A stretch of 64,000 nt of DNA from Leifsonia sp. AG29 (GTDB lineage: Bacteria > Actinomycetota > Actinomycetes > Actinomycetales > Microbacteriaceae). A program made the translations under genes and the position numbers. Shown here one piece after another: positions 55,985 through 63,839 of this stretch. The first letter of the stretch is position 1. Every line of letters starts with the position of its first letter. The stretch lies in NCBI RefSeq assembly GCF_009765225.1, contig NZ_VMSF01000001.1, positions 2,108,001 through 2,172,000 of the forward strand, given 5' to 3'. The notes beneath the pieces are model-generated. The model searched no databases. It was not told the DNA's origin and saw only the letters and a list, made by a program, of their open reading frames with translations.

Positions 55985-57298
55985 TCACCCGCCGAGCACG
56001 CGCTTGAGGTAGGCGTTCTCGAAGATCCGCTCGGGATCGAGGCGATCGCGGACCGCCCGGAAGTCGTCGAACCGCGGGTAGACGGTGCGCAGCGACTCGG
56101 CGTCGCGGTGGTGCAGCTTGCCCCAGTGCGGACGCCCCTCGAACGCCACCATGATGTCCTCGACCGCCCGGAAGTACTCCTCGGGGTTTTCCCGGTAATA
56201 GCGGTGCACGGCGATGTAGCCGCTCTCGCGGGCGTACGCCGTGGAAAGCCAGTTCTCGTCGGCGGCGGCGCTGCGCACCTCCATCGGGAACGAGATGCGC
56301 CAGCCGCGCCGCTCGATGAGCGCCTTGACGGCGCGCACCGCGTCGGGGACGGCGTCGCGCGGGACGGCGTACTCCATCTCGCGGAACCGGACGGTGCGGT
56401 TCGTCACGAAGACGCGCGGTGAGCGGTCGGTGAAGTCGCGGTTGCCGGTGAGCCGCTGAGCCAGGCGGTTGAACGGCGGGATGACGGCGGGCGCGACCGT
56501 CCCGAGAGCGCAGACGCCGCGATAGACGCCGTTCGCGAGAAGCTCGTCGTCGACCCACCGACCGAACGGCGGGAGGGGCTTGCGCGGGTCGGTGAGCGGC
56601 AGGCGCGTGTTCGTCTTGGTGAGCGCCGTCCCGGTGTGCGGGAACCAGTAGAACTCGAAATGATCCTCCCGGGCGGAGCGCTCCGTGTACGACTCGAGCA
56701 CCGCCTCCAGCGGCTCGGGGCGCTCGACGGCGTGCAAGAGGAACGCGGGGACGCACTGGATCGTGAGGTCGACGATGATGCCCAGCGCGCCGAGCCCCAC
56801 CCGGGCGGCGGGCAGGAGGTCGGCGTTCTCCTCCTCGCCGATGCGCAGGAGGCTGCCGTCGCCCGTCACGAGCGTCATGCCGACGATCTGCGTGGCGAGG
56901 CCGCCGAAGGCCCCGCCGGTGCCGTGCGTCCCCGTGGAGGTCGCTCCGGCGAGGCTCTGCCGGTCGATGTCGCCCATGTTCTGGAGCGCGAGCCCGTGCT
57001 GGCCGAGCAGCCGGGGCAGCTGATGGAGGCGCGTCCCGGCCGCCAGCGTCACGCGCGACCGGTCGAGGTCGAGGTCGACGATGCCCGTGAGCGCGTCCAG
57101 CTCGAGCAGGACCCCGGGCGCGGCGGCGATGCCCGTGAAGCTGTGGCCCGCTCCGACCGCTTTCACGCGCAGGTGTCTGGCCGCCGCGGCGGCGACGGAC
57201 CGCTGGACGGCCTCGGCCGTCGCGGGGCGCTCGACGCGCTGGGGTCGGATCGCTTCGCTGCGGCTCCAGTTGCGCCAGACGCCGCCGTCCGCCGTCAC
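55985..57298 (-). CDS. FAD-linked alditol/D-arabinono-1,4-lactone oxidase-like enzyme
   Basis: 437 residues of the vanillyl-alcohol-oxidase fold. The PP-loop VKAVGAGHSFTG has H52 at the position used for covalent FAD attachment in alditol oxidase. LAGATSTGTHGTG and the C-terminal RPHWGKLHHRD are family signatures of ALO/AldO. Such enzymes oxidise sugar alcohols or aldonolactones with oxygen, giving peroxide. The GTG start overlaps the upstream stop (GTGA) and has GGGAGGGA upstream. Last gene of the tetR operon; substrate unknown. Confidence 0.88.
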   Translation of the reverse strand: MTADGGVWRNWSRSEAIRPQRVERPATAEAVQRSVAAAAARHLRVKAVGAGHSFTGIAAAPGVLLELDALTGIVDLDLDRSRVTLAAGTRLHQLPRLLGQHGLALQNMGDIDRQSLAGATSTGTHGTGGAFGGLATQIVGMTLVTGDGSLLRIGEEENADLLPAARVGLGALGIIVDLTIQCVPAFLLHAVERPEPLEAVLESYTERSAREDHFEFYWFPHTGTALTKTNTRLPLTDPRKPLPPFGRWVDDELLANGVYRGVCALGTVAPAVIPPFNRLAQRLTGNRDFTDRSPRVFVTNRTVRFREMEYAVPRDAVPDAVRAVKALIERRGWRISFPMEVRSAAADENWLSTAYARESGYIAVHRYYRENPEEYFRAVEDIMVAFEGRPHWGKLHHRDAESLRTVYPRFDDFRAVRDRLDPERIFENAYLKRVLGG

Positions 57299-58599
57299 AG
57301 GAAGTCCCTCCCCTCGCCGCGGTACGTCGGCACCTCGCCGATCACCGCCACGCGGCCGTCGACGGAGTCGACCAGCTGGAACGCGTTGACGTGCTCGCTG
57401 AGCTCGCCCGACTTGGTGTGCCGGAACCACACGCGGTCACCGACCCGGAGAACCGAGGCCGCCGCGCCTCGCACCGGCGTCTGCACCTCGCCCGCCATCT
57501 CGCGCGCGACCATCGTGAGTCCGGCCGGCCACACCGGCTTGGGCAGGCGATCCGGCCCGGGCGGCCCGGACGCGACCCACCCCCCGCCGAGGAGCGTGGC
57601 CGTCCGCTCGTCGGGGCGCCGGACCACGGGCAGGGCGAACGCGGCGGCGGGTGCCGGCCGGAACCCCCGGTACGTGTCGAAGAGGTGACCGCCGAACAGA
57701 CCGCTCCCGGCCGCCAGCTCGGTGACCGACGGGTCGGATGCGGTGAACTCGAGGGATCCCGTCCCTCCCCCGTTGACGAAAGCGAGCTCGGCGATCGCGC
57801 GGACCGCGGCCACCGCCTCCCCCCGGCGCCCGAGCAGCTCCTCCCGGGAGCTCCGCTGCACCCGGCGGAGGGTCGCGCCCCAGGCGGGCCGCCCGGGCGG
57901 ACGGTCTCCCTGGCCGGCGATCTGGGCCTCGTAGCCCATGATGCCGACGAGCGAGAACCCGGGCCGGCGGACGACCTCCTCGGCGAGCGCCCGGAGCTCG
58001 GCGGGCGCGTGGAGCGGCGAGCGGTAGACGCCGACATGGCCGAGGACCGGGGCGTCCCAGGACGAGTCGAGCTCCAGGCAGACGCGGATGGTCTCACGCG
58101 CGCCGGGCCGGGTCACGGCGTCGACCAGGTCGAGGTGGGCCACGGAGTCGACCATGAGCGTCACCCGCGAGGCGAGCTCCGGGGAGGCGGCGAGCCGGGC
58201 GATCGCCGAGCGGTCGGCGGTGGGATAGCCCACGACCACATCGGTGATGGGCTCGTGCCCGTCGTCCCCCTCGGCGAGCCACAGCGCCTCAGGCAGCGTG
58301 TAGGCGAGGACCCCGCGATAGCCCGGGAGCGCGAGCACGGCGTCGAGCACCGAGCGCACGCGGACCGACTTGGAGGCGACGCGGATGGGCTTGGCCGGCG
58401 CGGACCCGGACGCTGCAGCGCCGGCCGCCACCCGGCGGAGCATGTCGTGCGCGTTGTGCCGGAGCGCCGGCAGGTGGAGGACCGCGAGCGGCGGATCGAG
58501 CCGCGCCGTGGCGGCGGACAAGGCGGGCCAGTGGGCGTCCGGCGCGGTCCAGGTCCGGTCCCGCGGTGCGGGCGGGGTCGACAGGTCGAGAGCGGTCAT
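57295..58599 (-). CDS. Alanine-racemase-fold PLP enzyme (D-threonine aldolase/amino acid deaminase type)
   Basis: 434 residues. Residues 36-260 form an alanine-racemase-type TIM barrel with the PLP lysine K77 in IRVASKSVRVRSVL; NGGGTGSLEF and GSGLFGGHLFDTY bind PLP phosphate and substrate. The C-terminal beta domain (about 300-434) includes VWFRHTKSGELSEHVNAF with the histidine expected in D-threonine aldolase relatives. It may cleave or deaminate a D- or beta-hydroxy amino acid. Its ATG overlaps the MFS stop (TGATG). Confidence 0.87.
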   Translation of the reverse strand: MTALDLSTPPAPRDRTWTAPDAHWPALSAATARLDPPLAVLHLPALRHNAHDMLRRVAAGAAASGSAPAKPIRVASKSVRVRSVLDAVLALPGYRGVLAYTLPEALWLAEGDDGHEPITDVVVGYPTADRSAIARLAASPELASRVTLMVDSVAHLDLVDAVTRPGARETIRVCLELDSSWDAPVLGHVGVYRSPLHAPAELRALAEEVVRRPGFSLVGIMGYEAQIAGQGDRPPGRPAWGATLRRVQRSSREELLGRRGEAVAAVRAIAELAFVNGGGTGSLEFTASDPSVTELAAGSGLFGGHLFDTYRGFRPAPAAAFALPVVRRPDERTATLLGGGWVASGPPGPDRLPKPVWPAGLTMVAREMAGEVQTPVRGAAASVLRVGDRVWFRHTKSGELSEHVNAFQLVDSVDGRVAVIGEVPTYRGEGRDFL

Positions 58600-59855
58600 C
58601 AGCGCACCGTCTTCACTCGGGCGACCGCGAGCGCGCCCGCGAACGCGAACAGGGCAGACAGCACGAACAGGCCCGCGAAACCGCCCAGCGCCGCGACGAT
58701 CATCGCGCCGAACAGCGGCGCCACGGCCTGCGGGACCGCGAGTGCGATGTTCATGATGCCGAGATCCTTCCCGCGGTTCTCCGGATCGGGGAGCACCTGC
58801 GTGGCGAGCGCCTGGTCGACCGACAGGAAGCACCCGTAGCCGAGGCCGAGCAGTCCGGCGGCGACCATCGCGACCGGGAGAGCGGGGACGAACGCGAGCA
58901 GGAGGGCGGCCACGCCCTGCACCGCCGAGGAGAGGAAGACGAAGGCCTTGCGCCTCCCGAGCCGGTCGGAGAGCCGGCCGAGCACGAGCGACGCCACGAT
59001 GACGAAGACCATGTAGATGAGGATCAGGATGAGGAGGTCGTCGTCGGCGTGCGCGTCGCGCAGGCCGAACTCGAGGAAGTACAGGAGGAGCGACGTGCCG
59101 AACGCGTTCCCGAGGTTCACGAGCACGCGGCTGAGCAGCGTCCAGCCGAAGTCCGGGTGCTCGCGCGGGCTGATCCACAGACCCTGCACCACGCCGCGCA
59201 CGGTCATCGCCTCGCGCAGCTCGGCGGGGAGGACCGCGTCCGGCAGGGCGAGGAACGGGAGCACGAGCAGCACGAGGAGGACCGCCATCGCCGCGTAGCC
59301 GACCAGAGCGCCGACGAAGACATAGGTCACGAGAGCCACGCCCAGGATGATCCCGATCGCCTGAGGAGCGCTGATCCACCCCGAGACGAAACCGCGCTGC
59401 CCCACGGGAACCTGGTCGCTGATCGTCGCGGTCAGGGCCGCGGTGAGGATGCAGAACCCGGTCAGCGCCAGGCACCAGAACGCGCCGATCCCGACGATCG
59501 TCGTCTGGAGGCCCAGGAGCATCAACGAGAGCGCGAACACGAGAGCGCCCGCGGCGATCCACGGCCGTCGGCGCCCGAACCGGCTCGTCGTCCGGTCGGA
59601 GAGCGCACCGGTGAGCGGGTAGGCGACGATCGCGCAGACGCCGGAGAGGCCCGAGATGATGCCGAACGCCACCACGCTGTCGACCCACGAGGAGGAGCCG
59701 AGCTGCCGCTGCACCTGGTCCGGGAGGAGCTTCTGGATCGGGGCCAGCTGCGCCATCCACACGCCGAGCCAGGCGATCGCGAAGAAGGCGATCCAGCGGC
59801 CCGGCACCCTGCGGGTCGGTTCGGCGAAGACGGCCGGGGTCGAGGTGTCGGTCAT
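58599..59855 (-). CDS. MFS transporter, sugar:cation symporter-like (SLC45/GPH type)
   Basis: 418 residues with 12 membrane segments. GALSDRTTSRFGRRRPWIAAGA (motif A form seen in sucrose and glycoside symporters) and GRLSDRLGRRKAF in the second half support this group. It probably carries the substrate or product of the operon's enzymes. Its ATG overlaps the tetR stop (ATGA). The upstream extension of the frame is shadow sequence of tetR. Confidence 0.88.
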   Translation of the reverse strand: MTDTSTPAVFAEPTRRVPGRWIAFFAIAWLGVWMAQLAPIQKLLPDQVQRQLGSSSWVDSVVAFGIISGLSGVCAIVAYPLTGALSDRTTSRFGRRRPWIAAGALVFALSLMLLGLQTTIVGIGAFWCLALTGFCILTAALTATISDQVPVGQRGFVSGWISAPQAIGIILGVALVTYVFVGALVGYAAMAVLLVLLVLPFLALPDAVLPAELREAMTVRGVVQGLWISPREHPDFGWTLLSRVLVNLGNAFGTSLLLYFLEFGLRDAHADDDLLILILIYMVFVIVASLVLGRLSDRLGRRKAFVFLSSAVQGVAALLLAFVPALPVAMVAAGLLGLGYGCFLSVDQALATQVLPDPENRGKDLGIMNIALAVPQAVAPLFGAMIVAALGGFAGLFVLSALFAFAGALAVARVKTVR

Positions 59856-60511
59856 CGGGAGCCGGCTTCCGTCGAGGGAGCCGCGGCGGCGGCTAGCGCG
59901 GAGGCGGGCGCGGCGAGCGCGGCGAGGGCGTCGGCCGCGAAGTCCAGCGCCGCCTCGGCCGCGTCGTCGTCGCGGGTGACGAGCCACGCCACCGTCAGCC
60001 CGTCGGTCAGGGTGACGAGGAGGCGCGCGATGTCGGCGACCGGGCGCCTCCATTCGCTGCCGCTCAGCCGCGCGGCCGTCTCGACGGCTTGCGCGGCCAG
60101 CTCGAAGTAGCGGTCGTACTGGCGCTTCGCGAGCGGGGCGAACCCGGGCTCCCGGAGCGCCCACTGGGTGAGCTCGAGCAGCGCCGTCTCGCGCTCGGGC
60201 GCAGCCCGGACGCCGTCGAAGTAGTGCTGCAGGCCGAGGCGCAGCACCTCCCGCAGCCCGGTCGGGCGCTCCCCCGGGCGGGGCAGCAGCACGGGCGCCA
60301 GGTCGGCCTGCTCGGAGGCGAGCGCGGCCTCGATCAGCTCGGCCATGAGCTCGTCCCGCGAGTCGAACACGTAGTGGAAGCTCGCGAGGGACATGCCCGC
60401 CTCGGCCACGATCCGGCGGGTCGTCGCTGCGGACACCCCGTCCTTCGCGACGACACGGAGGGCGGCCTGCACGAGCGCCGTGCGTCGTTCCGCTGCCGAG
60501 ATGCGCGTCAT
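59852..60511 (-). CDS. TetR-family transcriptional regulator
   Basis: 219 residues. N-terminal TetR helix-turn-helix (RTALVQAALRVVAKDGVSAATTRRIVAEAGMSLASFHYVF) and a helical ligand domain. GAGGAG lies five bases before the ATG. First gene of the operon with the transporter, PLP enzyme and flavoenzyme, all overlapped; it probably represses the operon from the palindrome just upstream and is released by a pathway substrate. Confidence 0.92.
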   Translation of the reverse strand: MTRISAAERRTALVQAALRVVAKDGVSAATTRRIVAEAGMSLASFHYVFDSRDELMAELIEAALASEQADLAPVLLPRPGERPTGLREVLRLGLQHYFDGVRAAPERETALLELTQWALREPGFAPLAKRQYDRYFELAAQAVETAARLSGSEWRRPVADIARLLVTLTDGLTVAWLVTRDDDAAEAALDFAADALAALAAPASALAAAAAPSTEAGSR

Positions 60512-60552: not shown

Positions 60553-60569
60553 GGACAAGTGACCCAGTT
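60553..60569. promoter_or_regulatory. Putative TetR operator
   Basis: ACAAGTGACCCAGTTGT is a 17-base imperfect palindrome in which six of eight pairs match (ACAA-TG...CA-TTGT). It lies 42-58 bases upstream of the tetR start, within the 126-base gap to the divergent gene, where the tetR promoter must be. Confidence 0.55.
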
Positions 60570-60637
60570 GTCAGTATGCCGTAAATCCCCGTCACACGTT
60601 TGACAGGGACCCTCGGCACCCCCTGGAATGGGGGTGA

Positions 60638-62833
60638 ATGCGGGGATTCAGCACGGACAGCTCACCGCCAGACCAGCGACGGGGATCGCTCGGGCTGGTG
60701 GCTCTGGCGATCGCGGCGGCCGGTCTCCTGCTCCTCCTCGGCGCCGTCGGACCCGCCGGTCCGCCCGCCTCGGCCGAGACCACGCCGTCGCCCCCCGCCG
60801 CCGATCTCGCGGCCACCGACCCGCCGACACCGGCGTCGCCGCCGCCCACCGCCGCACCGACCACTCTGGGCCCGCTCCCCACCGGGCTCGTCACACGCTT
60901 CCCTCTCGCGATCAGCGGCTCCGGCGTGACCGGCGACACCATCGACGTGTCCGGCGGGTCGTCGCCGGGCCCGACCGAGCAGTGCCAGGCCGTCGTCGCC
61001 GCCGACGGCAGCTGGACCTGCTCGCTCGGCGCCCTGCCCGACGGCCCGTCCGTCCCGGTCCGAGCGGTCTCGCGCGGGAGCGGGGAGGCGGACTCCGGCA
61101 AGGTGCAGGTGCTGCGGCCGCCGAGCATCGCCGTGCCCCCGGGCGGCCTGGCGACCTCAGGCGGCATCCGCGGCACGGCCTACCCGGGGGCGACGGTCAC
61201 CGTGACGGCGGAGACGGGGGCGAGCTGCAGCTTCCCCGCCGACTCGACCGGTTCCTGGGGCTGTGTCCTGAGCGGCCTGGCGGATGGGCGCCACTCCGTC
61301 ACCGCGCGCCAGGTCGCGCCCTTCTCCTCGCAGAGCTCCGCCCCCACCGCGGCCGTGCCCGTCCTCGTCGACGCGACCGCCCCGCCTGCGCCCGCGATCG
61401 GCGCGCCGAGCAGCGGCTCGGCCGTCGCGCCCGGTTCCGCGTTCATAGTTCGCGGGACGGGCGAGGAGGGAGACCGCATCACCGTCTACGCGAGCACGCA
61501 GGCCGGGACCGTCGTGGCTTGCACGGCCACGGTCGCCGGAGGCGCGTGGTCGTGCTCGGCGAACCTGCCGGCCGGCAAGTACCTGCTCTCCGCGCTCCAG
61601 CGGGATGCCGCGGGCAACGTCAGTCCGGGAAGCAACGGCGTCTCGCTGACCGCCGCCGCCCCCGCGCGGAGCACTCCGGCCTCCCCGTCGACCGCCGCAC
61701 CCGCTCCGACGCCGTCGTCCGCACCGTCGAGCGCGGCGCCGGCGCCCGCACCGGCTCCCGCCGACCCGCCGGCGGCTTCGGCGCCGCACCCCGGGACCAA
61801 GAGCTGGATCGGCACCCCGTTCACCGTCGCCTCGGCTCCCGTGGTGAGCGCGGAGGCGATCCCCGGCTGGGTGCGCTCCGTCGCCCTCGCTCTGGCGGCG
61901 CTCCTCCTCCTGATCCTCCCGGCACGGCTGCTGTCCGCGGCGCTGGCGCGGAATCGCGAGCCGCGACGGACCCGGTCCCGCGGAACGCCGACGTTCTTCG
62001 GACGCAACCGTCCCCGCGATGCCGCGCCCTCGCTGTTCGCGCGATCGCAGCCGACGGTCGACGCGTCCGCGCCTCCCCCGGACCCGAACGGACCGGCCGC
62101 GGCGGACCCGTCGCAGCGCTGGCTGCTCCCCGTGGTCGGTGTGCTGGCCGCGACGCTCGTGACGCTCTCGACGTCGGTGCCGGACACGGGCGCCTACCTC
62201 CGTCTCCTGCTCGCCGTCCTCGTGGCGGTCGCCGCTGTGAACGCCGTGTGGGTGCTGTCGGCCCGTGTGATCGCACCGCGAGTCGGCTTGGAAGCGCCCC
62301 ACGTCCGCGTGCGACCGGTGGCGCTCGCGATCGTCGCGGTCACCGCGCTCGGTTCGCGTCTCGTCGGACTCGAGCCCGCACTGCTCTTCGGCCTGGTGCT
62401 CGGGGTGGTGTTCGAGCCGCACGTCGGGCGCGCGCGTCGCGGGCACGTCGCCGCGGTCCAGGCCTGTTCGGTGGCCGCTCTCGGGGTGATCGCCTGGCTG
62501 ACGGTCGGCCTGCTCCCCGCCCCGGCGGGCGTGGTCTCGGCGTTCCTCGTCGAGCTGGCGAACTCGCTCGCACTCCTCGGGCTCGGGTCCGCGGCGGTCG
62601 TCCTCCTGCCGTTCGGGTCGTTCTCGGGGAAGGCCATCGCGAGGTGGTCCCGGTGGTTCTGGCTCGCCCTGACCCTCGTCGTCTACACCCTGCTGTTCGC
62701 GCTGCTGCTGCCCGTCGCCTCCCTGGTGCAGGCCGGCGCCGGGCTCATCATCGTCGTCGTCGCCGCGGTCGTGTTCGCCGCGCTCAGCGTCTCCACGTGG
62801 CTGTGGGAGCGCTACGTCGAACCGGCGCGCTGA
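60638..62833 (+). CDS. Unknown protein: three Ig-like domains plus multi-span membrane domain
   Basis: 731 residues. An N-terminal signal/anchor (about 17-46) precedes a Thr/Pro/Ala-rich stalk, three bacterial Ig-like repeats (about 85-150, 165-240, 250-345; each ends in a pattern such as ADGSWTCSLGALPDG or TGSWGCVLSGLADG), a second Pro/Ala-rich linker, a membrane helix near 410-435, a basic cytoplasmic loop, and seven or eight further helices to the end. Paired cysteines in each Ig repeat suggest disulphides outside the cell. I do not recognise the membrane domain. It converges on the ychJ-like gene. Function unknown; perhaps surface sensing or adhesion. Confidence 0.8.
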   Translation: MRGFSTDSSPPDQRRGSLGLVALAIAAAGLLLLLGAVGPAGPPASAETTPSPPAADLAATDPPTPASPPPTAAPTTLGPLPTGLVTRFPLAISGSGVTGDTIDVSGGSSPGPTEQCQAVVAADGSWTCSLGALPDGPSVPVRAVSRGSGEADSGKVQVLRPPSIAVPPGGLATSGGIRGTAYPGATVTVTAETGASCSFPADSTGSWGCVLSGLADGRHSVTARQVAPFSSQSSAPTAAVPVLVDATAPPAPAIGAPSSGSAVAPGSAFIVRGTGEEGDRITVYASTQAGTVVACTATVAGGAWSCSANLPAGKYLLSALQRDAAGNVSPGSNGVSLTAAAPARSTPASPSTAAPAPTPSSAPSSAAPAPAPAPADPPAASAPHPGTKSWIGTPFTVASAPVVSAEAIPGWVRSVALALAALLLLILPARLLSAALARNREPRRTRSRGTPTFFGRNRPRDAAPSLFARSQPTVDASAPPPDPNGPAAADPSQRWLLPVVGVLAATLVTLSTSVPDTGAYLRLLLAVLVAVAAVNAVWVLSARVIAPRVGLEAPHVRVRPVALAIVAVTALGSRLVGLEPALLFGLVLGVVFEPHVGRARRGHVAAVQACSVAALGVIAWLTVGLLPAPAGVVSAFLVELANSLALLGLGSAAVVLLPFGSFSGKAIARWSRWFWLALTLVVYTLLFALLLPVASLVQAGAGLIIVVVAAVVFAALSVSTWLWERYVEPAR

Positions 62834-63572: not shown

Positions 63573-63646
63573 GCCCCCATAGCCCAATTGGCAGAGGCAG
63601 GCGACTTAAAATCGCCCGAGTGTGGGTTCGAGTCCCACTGGGGGTA
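63573..63646 (+). tRNA. tRNA-Leu (anticodon UAA), short variable loop
   Basis: A 74-base cloverleaf: acceptor GCCCCCA/TGGGGGT, a 3-bp D stem GCC/GGC, anticodon stem GGCGA/TCGCC around CTTAAAA (anticodon TAA), T arm GTGGG-TTCGAGT-CCCAC, and A at the discriminator position. The variable loop is only five bases (CGAGT), whereas bacterial tRNA-Leu normally has a long class II arm. CCA is not encoded. Confidence 0.85.
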
Positions 63647-63839
63647 CTGCCTACCCGCTGACGATCGACGCGCGACGCGACGCGTTTGCGGCCCTGCGGG
63701 ACGCATGCGGCCGCGCGCGCAGTCGCACACGTCCCCAGCAACCGCAGGAGCGCGCGCTTGCCGGTGTCAGGCGCGCGGAGCTGCCGGCTGGCCGCGCTCG
63801 GATGAGCGAAAGCCCGGCGCCGCGGCGGCCCGGGACGGC

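Follow-up and report, generated by a model that had tools for sequence, protein, structure and literature searches.

What kind of protein is encoded on the forward strand at positions 60638–62833 of the window (the whole 64,000-nucleotide stretch of Leifsonia sp. AG29 DNA analyzed here), and what might it do in the cell envelope? The original prediction, made from the DNA letters, described Cys-paired Ig-like repeats on a Pro/Ala stalk linked to an unrecognised multi-span domain, and placed the protein at the surface. Chance open frames are numerous in a stretch as GC-rich as the one around this gene (74% GC); judging by positional GC and by conservation in orthologous loci, this frame is not one of them. 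Orthologues agree in start, frame and layout, and the position of the ATG is common to those in the alignment. From the N- to the C-terminus, the product comprises a signal peptide, a Pro/Ala stalk, three Ig repeats, another stalk and a membrane domain with some nine helices. Profiles, an AlphaFold2 model and the alignment support the proposed layout. The sequence also points to a Sec-type signal peptide (residues 1–46), probably cleaved after ASA, and a surface location is supported. Both stalks are largely of low confidence and devoid of secondary structure in the model, and their mean pairwise identity among 14 aligned proteins is 29% (residues 47–83) and 35% (residues 343–387). The features of the locus are as follows.

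60600–60629, + strand: two promoter-like boxes, TTGACA (from 60600) and TGGAAT (from 60624), the second of which ends 8 bases ahead of the ATG
60638–62833, + strand: whole gene, 731 amino acids plus stop, ATG start
60638–60775, + strand: putative Sec-type signal peptide, residues 1–46, based on the hydrophobic segment 16–45 and the sequence
60776–60886, + strand: first Pro/Ala-rich stalk, residues 47–83, of low identity and mostly without secondary structure
60887–61123, + strand: Ig repeat 1, residues 84–162, with Cys 116/128
61124–61375, + strand: Ig repeat 2, residues 163–246, with Cys 197/209 and with Asp245 in the linker
61376–61663, + strand: Ig repeat 3, residues 247–342, with Cys 295/306 and with Glu276 and Asp323 as candidate Ca2+ ligands
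61664–61798, + strand: second Pro/Ala-rich stalk, residues 343–387, of low identity and low pLDDT
61799–61864, + strand: conserved outer segment with W-x-x-T-P-F, residues 388–409, 63% mean pairwise identity
61865–61951, + strand: first membrane helix of the platform, residues 410–438, with Pro428
61952–62116, + strand: predicted inner loop, residues 439–493, with the invariant G455-R456-N457 (62000–62008)
62117–62809, + strand: membrane helices 2–9, residues 494–724, from model, hydropathy and alignment

The ectodomain is readily assigned. Pfam Big_13 (E 6.9e-14; 52.6 bits against a cut-off of 27) and Big_6 (E 1.6e-7; 31.9 bits against 27.6) both scored above their cut-offs, as did NCBIfam Ca_tandemer (59.8 bits against 50), which matched three stretches; for Big_13 and Ca_tandemer the best stretch is repeat 3. 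AlphaFold2 produced three β domains at about residues 84–340, with pLDDT mostly between 80 and 95, and the full model came closest in fold to the Ig domains of SiiE (E 7.3e-12) and to a large adhesion protein repeat. All three Cys pairs (116/128, 197/209 and 295/306) are kept in 14 of 14 aligned proteins which, together with the Big_13 and Ca_tandemer scores, confirms the predicted three Cys-paired repeats. Among 26 orthologues from other genera, 21 have the pair in all three repeats and five in two. The spacing of 11–12 residues within each repeat suggests a hairpin disulphide rather than the classic Ig disulphide.

The number of repeats hardly varies: exactly three are present in all 26 orthologues from other genera and in 25 of 27 from the same genus. 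In the remaining two (L042:7768–10308 and L054:7937–10375), the Ig repeats, either all or two of the three, are off-frame from the membrane domain; these are broken genes or sequencing errors. One of the two genomes with such a frame-split gene (G017) is small, at about 2.6 Mb. The mean pairwise identity of the repeats among the 14 aligned proteins (55–63%) is about the same as that of membrane helices 2–9 (62%), which speaks for a constant ligand. A variable host-facing adhesin, also considered, is not favored for the same reason.

A study of SiiE (PMC5466336) describes type I Ca2+ sites as combining an Asp of one domain with two of the next Ig domain. Asp245 in the linker between repeats 2 and 3, and Glu276 and Asp323 in repeat 3, are invariant in 14 of 14 proteins and, by likeness to SiiE, may form one Ca2+ site at this junction. 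A D-x-A-G-N motif ahead of the membrane domain is found in 50 of 52 Ig-type proteins, a count that leaves out the two split genes and a further Ig-type protein, L103.

The membrane domain turned out to be larger than originally proposed, as it begins at about residue 388–410 and not at residue 500. The multi-helix C-terminus stands, but instead of "eight or so" helices the AlphaFold2 model has nine (residues 410–438, 496–510, 517–548, 560–575, 580–591, 601–625, 632–655, 668–690 and 701–730), in rough agreement with hydropathy. With the ectodomain outside, nine helices would bring the C-terminus to the inside, where the Arg-rich loops would lie as well. Family motifs within residues 494–724 are S573-R574-x5-P580-x4-G585, W620, P658-x5-G664 and W675. 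Arg522, Ser573, Arg574 and Glu639, all conserved and located in or at the membrane, could be a sign of an activity.

Fold searches, which had been suggested as a check, took us only part of the way: nine helices were modeled, but no confident fold match emerged. The model of the membrane domain alone, for which an alignment of 14 close rows served as input, is weak (mean pLDDT 60, pTM 0.54), and a Foldseek search with it returned nothing below E 0.88. The best VIA-align score (Z 7.4) was to microbial rhodopsins and lies where, according to the tool, helical bundles commonly score. Given such middling scores and the weak model, we claim neither a fold match nor a new fold. A Pfam search of residues 401–731 and a comparison of the family profile with PDB sequences gave no match.

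Is the domain then truly unrecognised? It is homologous to NF041501 (cola_mem, FGLLP motif-containing membrane protein), with a match of E 5.6e-21 that covers profile positions 18–312 of 312 and residues 414–721. Yet the score, 74.8 bits in the protein scan and 79.5 in the genome scan, is below the curated cut-off of 150, and the domain falls into a separate clade. "Unrecognised" therefore holds only in part, and so does membership in a known family, which had been expected to settle the matter. A tree built from 58 domain sequences separates the 30 Ig-type rows of Microbacteriaceae from the others by a branch with support 100/99, although labels were set beforehand by similarity and locus and branches are long; the canonical row nearest to them is L102, which comes from Microbacteriaceae and bears an LRR ectodomain. 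NF041501 matches each of the 28 members of alignment A5. Text searches returned no paper on the window protein and none naming the NF041501 family. The subfamily is new and adjoins a named but uncharacterised family; it is not a new category.

Conservation across the two groups can also be followed at the level of residues. Pro580, Pro658 and Gly664 are each present in 58 of 58 sequences, and Ser or Thr at position 573 in 57 of 58. Arg574 is found in 30/30 Ig-type and 23/28 canonical sequences, and Trp675 in 28/30 and 28/28, respectively. The region corresponding to the FGLLP motif, as we understand that name from the sequences, reads VVLLPFGSFSG in the window protein; Pro658 and Gly664 are kept, and the rest differs from the canonical F-G-L-L-P-L-x-F-L-D-G.

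Outside the Ig-type clade, the membrane domain occurs with other partners, as a search for the domain without Ig repeats revealed. Among the 23 proteins that NF041501 retrieved, such repeats are absent from 20, a single one occurs in one protein and three occur in two, one of the latter being the Ig-type L103. A named ectodomain scored above its cut-off in five of ten canonical proteins scanned (LamG, LRR, Big_3_5, Calx-beta and CarboxypepD_reg/SpaA), and none did in the other five. As the ectodomain is fixed in Ig-type proteins and swapped elsewhere, the membrane domain looks like a reusable base. In one canonical relative (L108:127–3960), a long C-terminal stretch of HEAT-like repeats follows the membrane domain; HEAT_2 scored slightly under its cut-off, and the stretch could serve as a partner domain on the inner side. 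Canonical-type relatives (L044, L072) are also encoded at other loci in some Microbacteriaceae genomes (G008, G036), and thus both types can coexist in one genome.

A distinctive feature of the Ig-type clade follows the first membrane helix. Here the consensus is [LIVF]-[FT]-G-R-N-[RQ], with few exceptions at the flanks. G-R-N was found in 55 of 55 Ig-type sequences by pattern search and in 30 of 30 aligned rows; for row L209 the pattern search seemingly picked another place, but the aligned columns G, R and N hold, L209 included. Among 22 canonical proteins GRN occurs in one (L102), within the later LDG-type motif and not in the loop. The motif stands out because it is invariant inside a loop that is otherwise only 36% identical among 14 aligned proteins. 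From the topology the loop is expected on the inner side, and GRN may thus be a conserved cytoplasmic contact.

How widespread is this protein? Thirteen named loci carry a relative, 12 from Leifsonia and one labeled Microbacterium sp. STN6. In a survey of 60 genomes including our own, NF041501 relatives were present in all 27 other (Leifsonia-like) genomes of the genus, in seven of nine other genomes of the family and in none of the 23 genomes drawn from elsewhere in the order. Among the seven is G036, whose two main matches are canonical-type. A profile of the membrane domain at E 1e-6 matched in 88 of the 150 genomes from the family, which represent 51 of the 85 genera sampled, counting our own genome and canonical-type proteins, and gave no match in the other 62 genomes. 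Larger samples show NF041501 to be rare: the cut-off was exceeded in 13 of 296 genomes of the class (18 at E 1e-6) and in seven of 396 genomes of the phylum (10 at E 1e-6).

Gene neighborhoods offer little by way of a partner. Divergently upstream lie genes for a TetR regulator, an MFS transporter, an aldolase-like protein and a FAD-linked oxidase (window 55985–60511, − strand), followed by LemA-like and HtpX-type genes; the former we take to be LemA-like, the tool match being to the MamQ model and below cut-off. A YchJ gene sits downstream, and the sole tRNA gene found in the window, tRNA-Leu (TAA), is at 63573–63647 (+). In the same genus TetR, MFS, aldolase and oxidase genes are present in 25 of 27 loci and YchJ in all 27. 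For 26 loci of other genera the counts, lower bounds because the stretches were under 20 kb, are TetR 12, MFS 13, aldolase 17, oxidase 17, LemA-like 21, HtpX-type 16 and YchJ 1. Since loci that lack the cluster still have the gene, the cluster is not a requirement, and neighborhood conservation in Microbacteriaceae looks like general conservation of gene order. Across 20 loci, canonical with a few from Microbacteriaceae, no neighbor family recurred in three or more, as seen with a gene caller tuned to high GC that may miss genes and called the target gene itself 18 times.

Conserved across 25 aligned upstream regions, including that of the window, are a TTGACA-like box and a block that runs up to the ATG. 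The TTGACA and TGGAAT boxes may act as a promoter and, as they adjoin the ATG, transcription would start close to it and yield a near-leaderless transcript. The strongly conserved blocks of the short divergent region (60557–60637) are GTGGGAC..TTGACCCAG..CAGTATGCC..AAAT, GTTTGACA and TGGAATGGGGTGGAATG. Inspection of this alignment by eye suggested no TetR operator.

Taken together, we favor, with a probability of about 50%, a binding protein at the cell surface that a polytopic membrane platform holds in place. Display of the Ig rod at the surface is likely; ligand, partner and any signaling we infer. As for its role, a fixed contact in the envelope is most likely, be it adhesion or a link from the membrane to a conserved ligand in the wall or matrix. 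Of the possibilities raised at the outset (receptor, transporter or anchor), an anchor or a receptor agrees best with the data, given that relatives carry unrelated binding-type ectodomains on this membrane domain; the swaps in five of ten canonical proteins are as expected for a display base. A sortase-anchored protein would have a C-terminal LPXTG followed by a single helix and a basic tail; here no LPXTG is found near the C-terminus, and the nine-helix domain ends in WERYVEPAR. Nine helices exceed what a mere anchor needs. A transmembrane receptor, in which a ligand on the Ig rod would change the membrane domain and the change would be read in the cytoplasm via the GRN loop, is a tentative alternative. 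It draws on the invariance of GRN within a variable loop, on conserved Arg, Ser, Pro and Gly residues among the nine helices, and on the divergent TetR gene that adjoins in most loci of the genus and in nearly half of those from other genera; however, the protein has no signaling domain, canonical relatives have no recurrent partner gene, and the gene persists where TetR is missing.

An envelope transporter, flippase or enzyme, with the Ig part as merely an external docking arm, appears unlikely. Nine helices, a short hairpin at S-R-x5-P and conserved polar residues nearby would suit it, and a transport or enzyme fold could be hidden in so weak a membrane model, but the Pfam, PDB-sequence and fold searches gave it no backing and the ectodomain changes completely between relatives. 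Very improbable, and rejected, is a degenerate relative of M50 site-2 proteases. The canonical LLPLxFLDG resembles M50 LLPxxPLDGG, a likeness seen in canonical members, and Peptidase_M50 matched one of 28 members below cut-off (E 0.018). Against this, the window protein has no HExxH zinc motif, its clade lacks the Asp of LDG, and when 15 M50 proteins, which came from 30 fetched loci and did not include the SpoIVFB type, were compared profile to profile, the probability was 1.8%.

For the surface binding protein that we prefer, the following sequence of events can be proposed. Sec export and signal cleavage would place the Ig rod outside, where the Cys pairs and one Ca2+ site at the Ig2–Ig3 junction would stiffen it. 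The stalk would raise the rod into or through the wall, the nine-helix domain would fix the protein in the membrane, and the inner loop would dock a conserved partner via GRN.

That the protein probably matters to the envelope is suggested by its fixed architecture, by a motif that none of the examined copies has altered and by the occurrence of relatives in 88 of the 150 genomes sampled from the family. A broader and rather doubtful idea makes the whole NF041501 superfamily a multipurpose receptor chassis of actinobacteria, with exchangeable binding ectodomains outside and a clade-specific reporting loop inside; Microbacteriaceae would then have settled on the three-Ig, GRN-loop version as an envelope receptor that is widespread and has a conserved ligand and partner to itself. 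GRN, the Ig rod and the phenotype of a deletion all lend themselves to direct tests, and what is learned from the Ig-type protein would offer a first way into the NF041501 family at large.

Three known systems invite comparison. Inverse autotransporters of the intimin/invasin type share the working principle of an Ig rod projecting from a membrane-embedded anchor; their anchor is an outer-membrane β-barrel, whereas the window protein has a helical platform, presumably in the cytoplasmic membrane, and nothing speaks for common descent. SiiE-type BIg/Ca_tandemer adhesin repeats (Big_13) share the Ig fold and the candidate type I Ca2+ ligands at one junction, but SiiE is a giant secreted adhesin, while the window protein is membrane-bound and has only three repeats, each with a Cys pair. 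In the canonical NF041501 proteins, a binding-type extracellular ectodomain likewise precedes a homologous membrane domain. The clade of the window protein differs from them in having LLPxGxxxGR instead of LLPLxFLDG and in the loop GRN, which is limited to the Ig-type clade.
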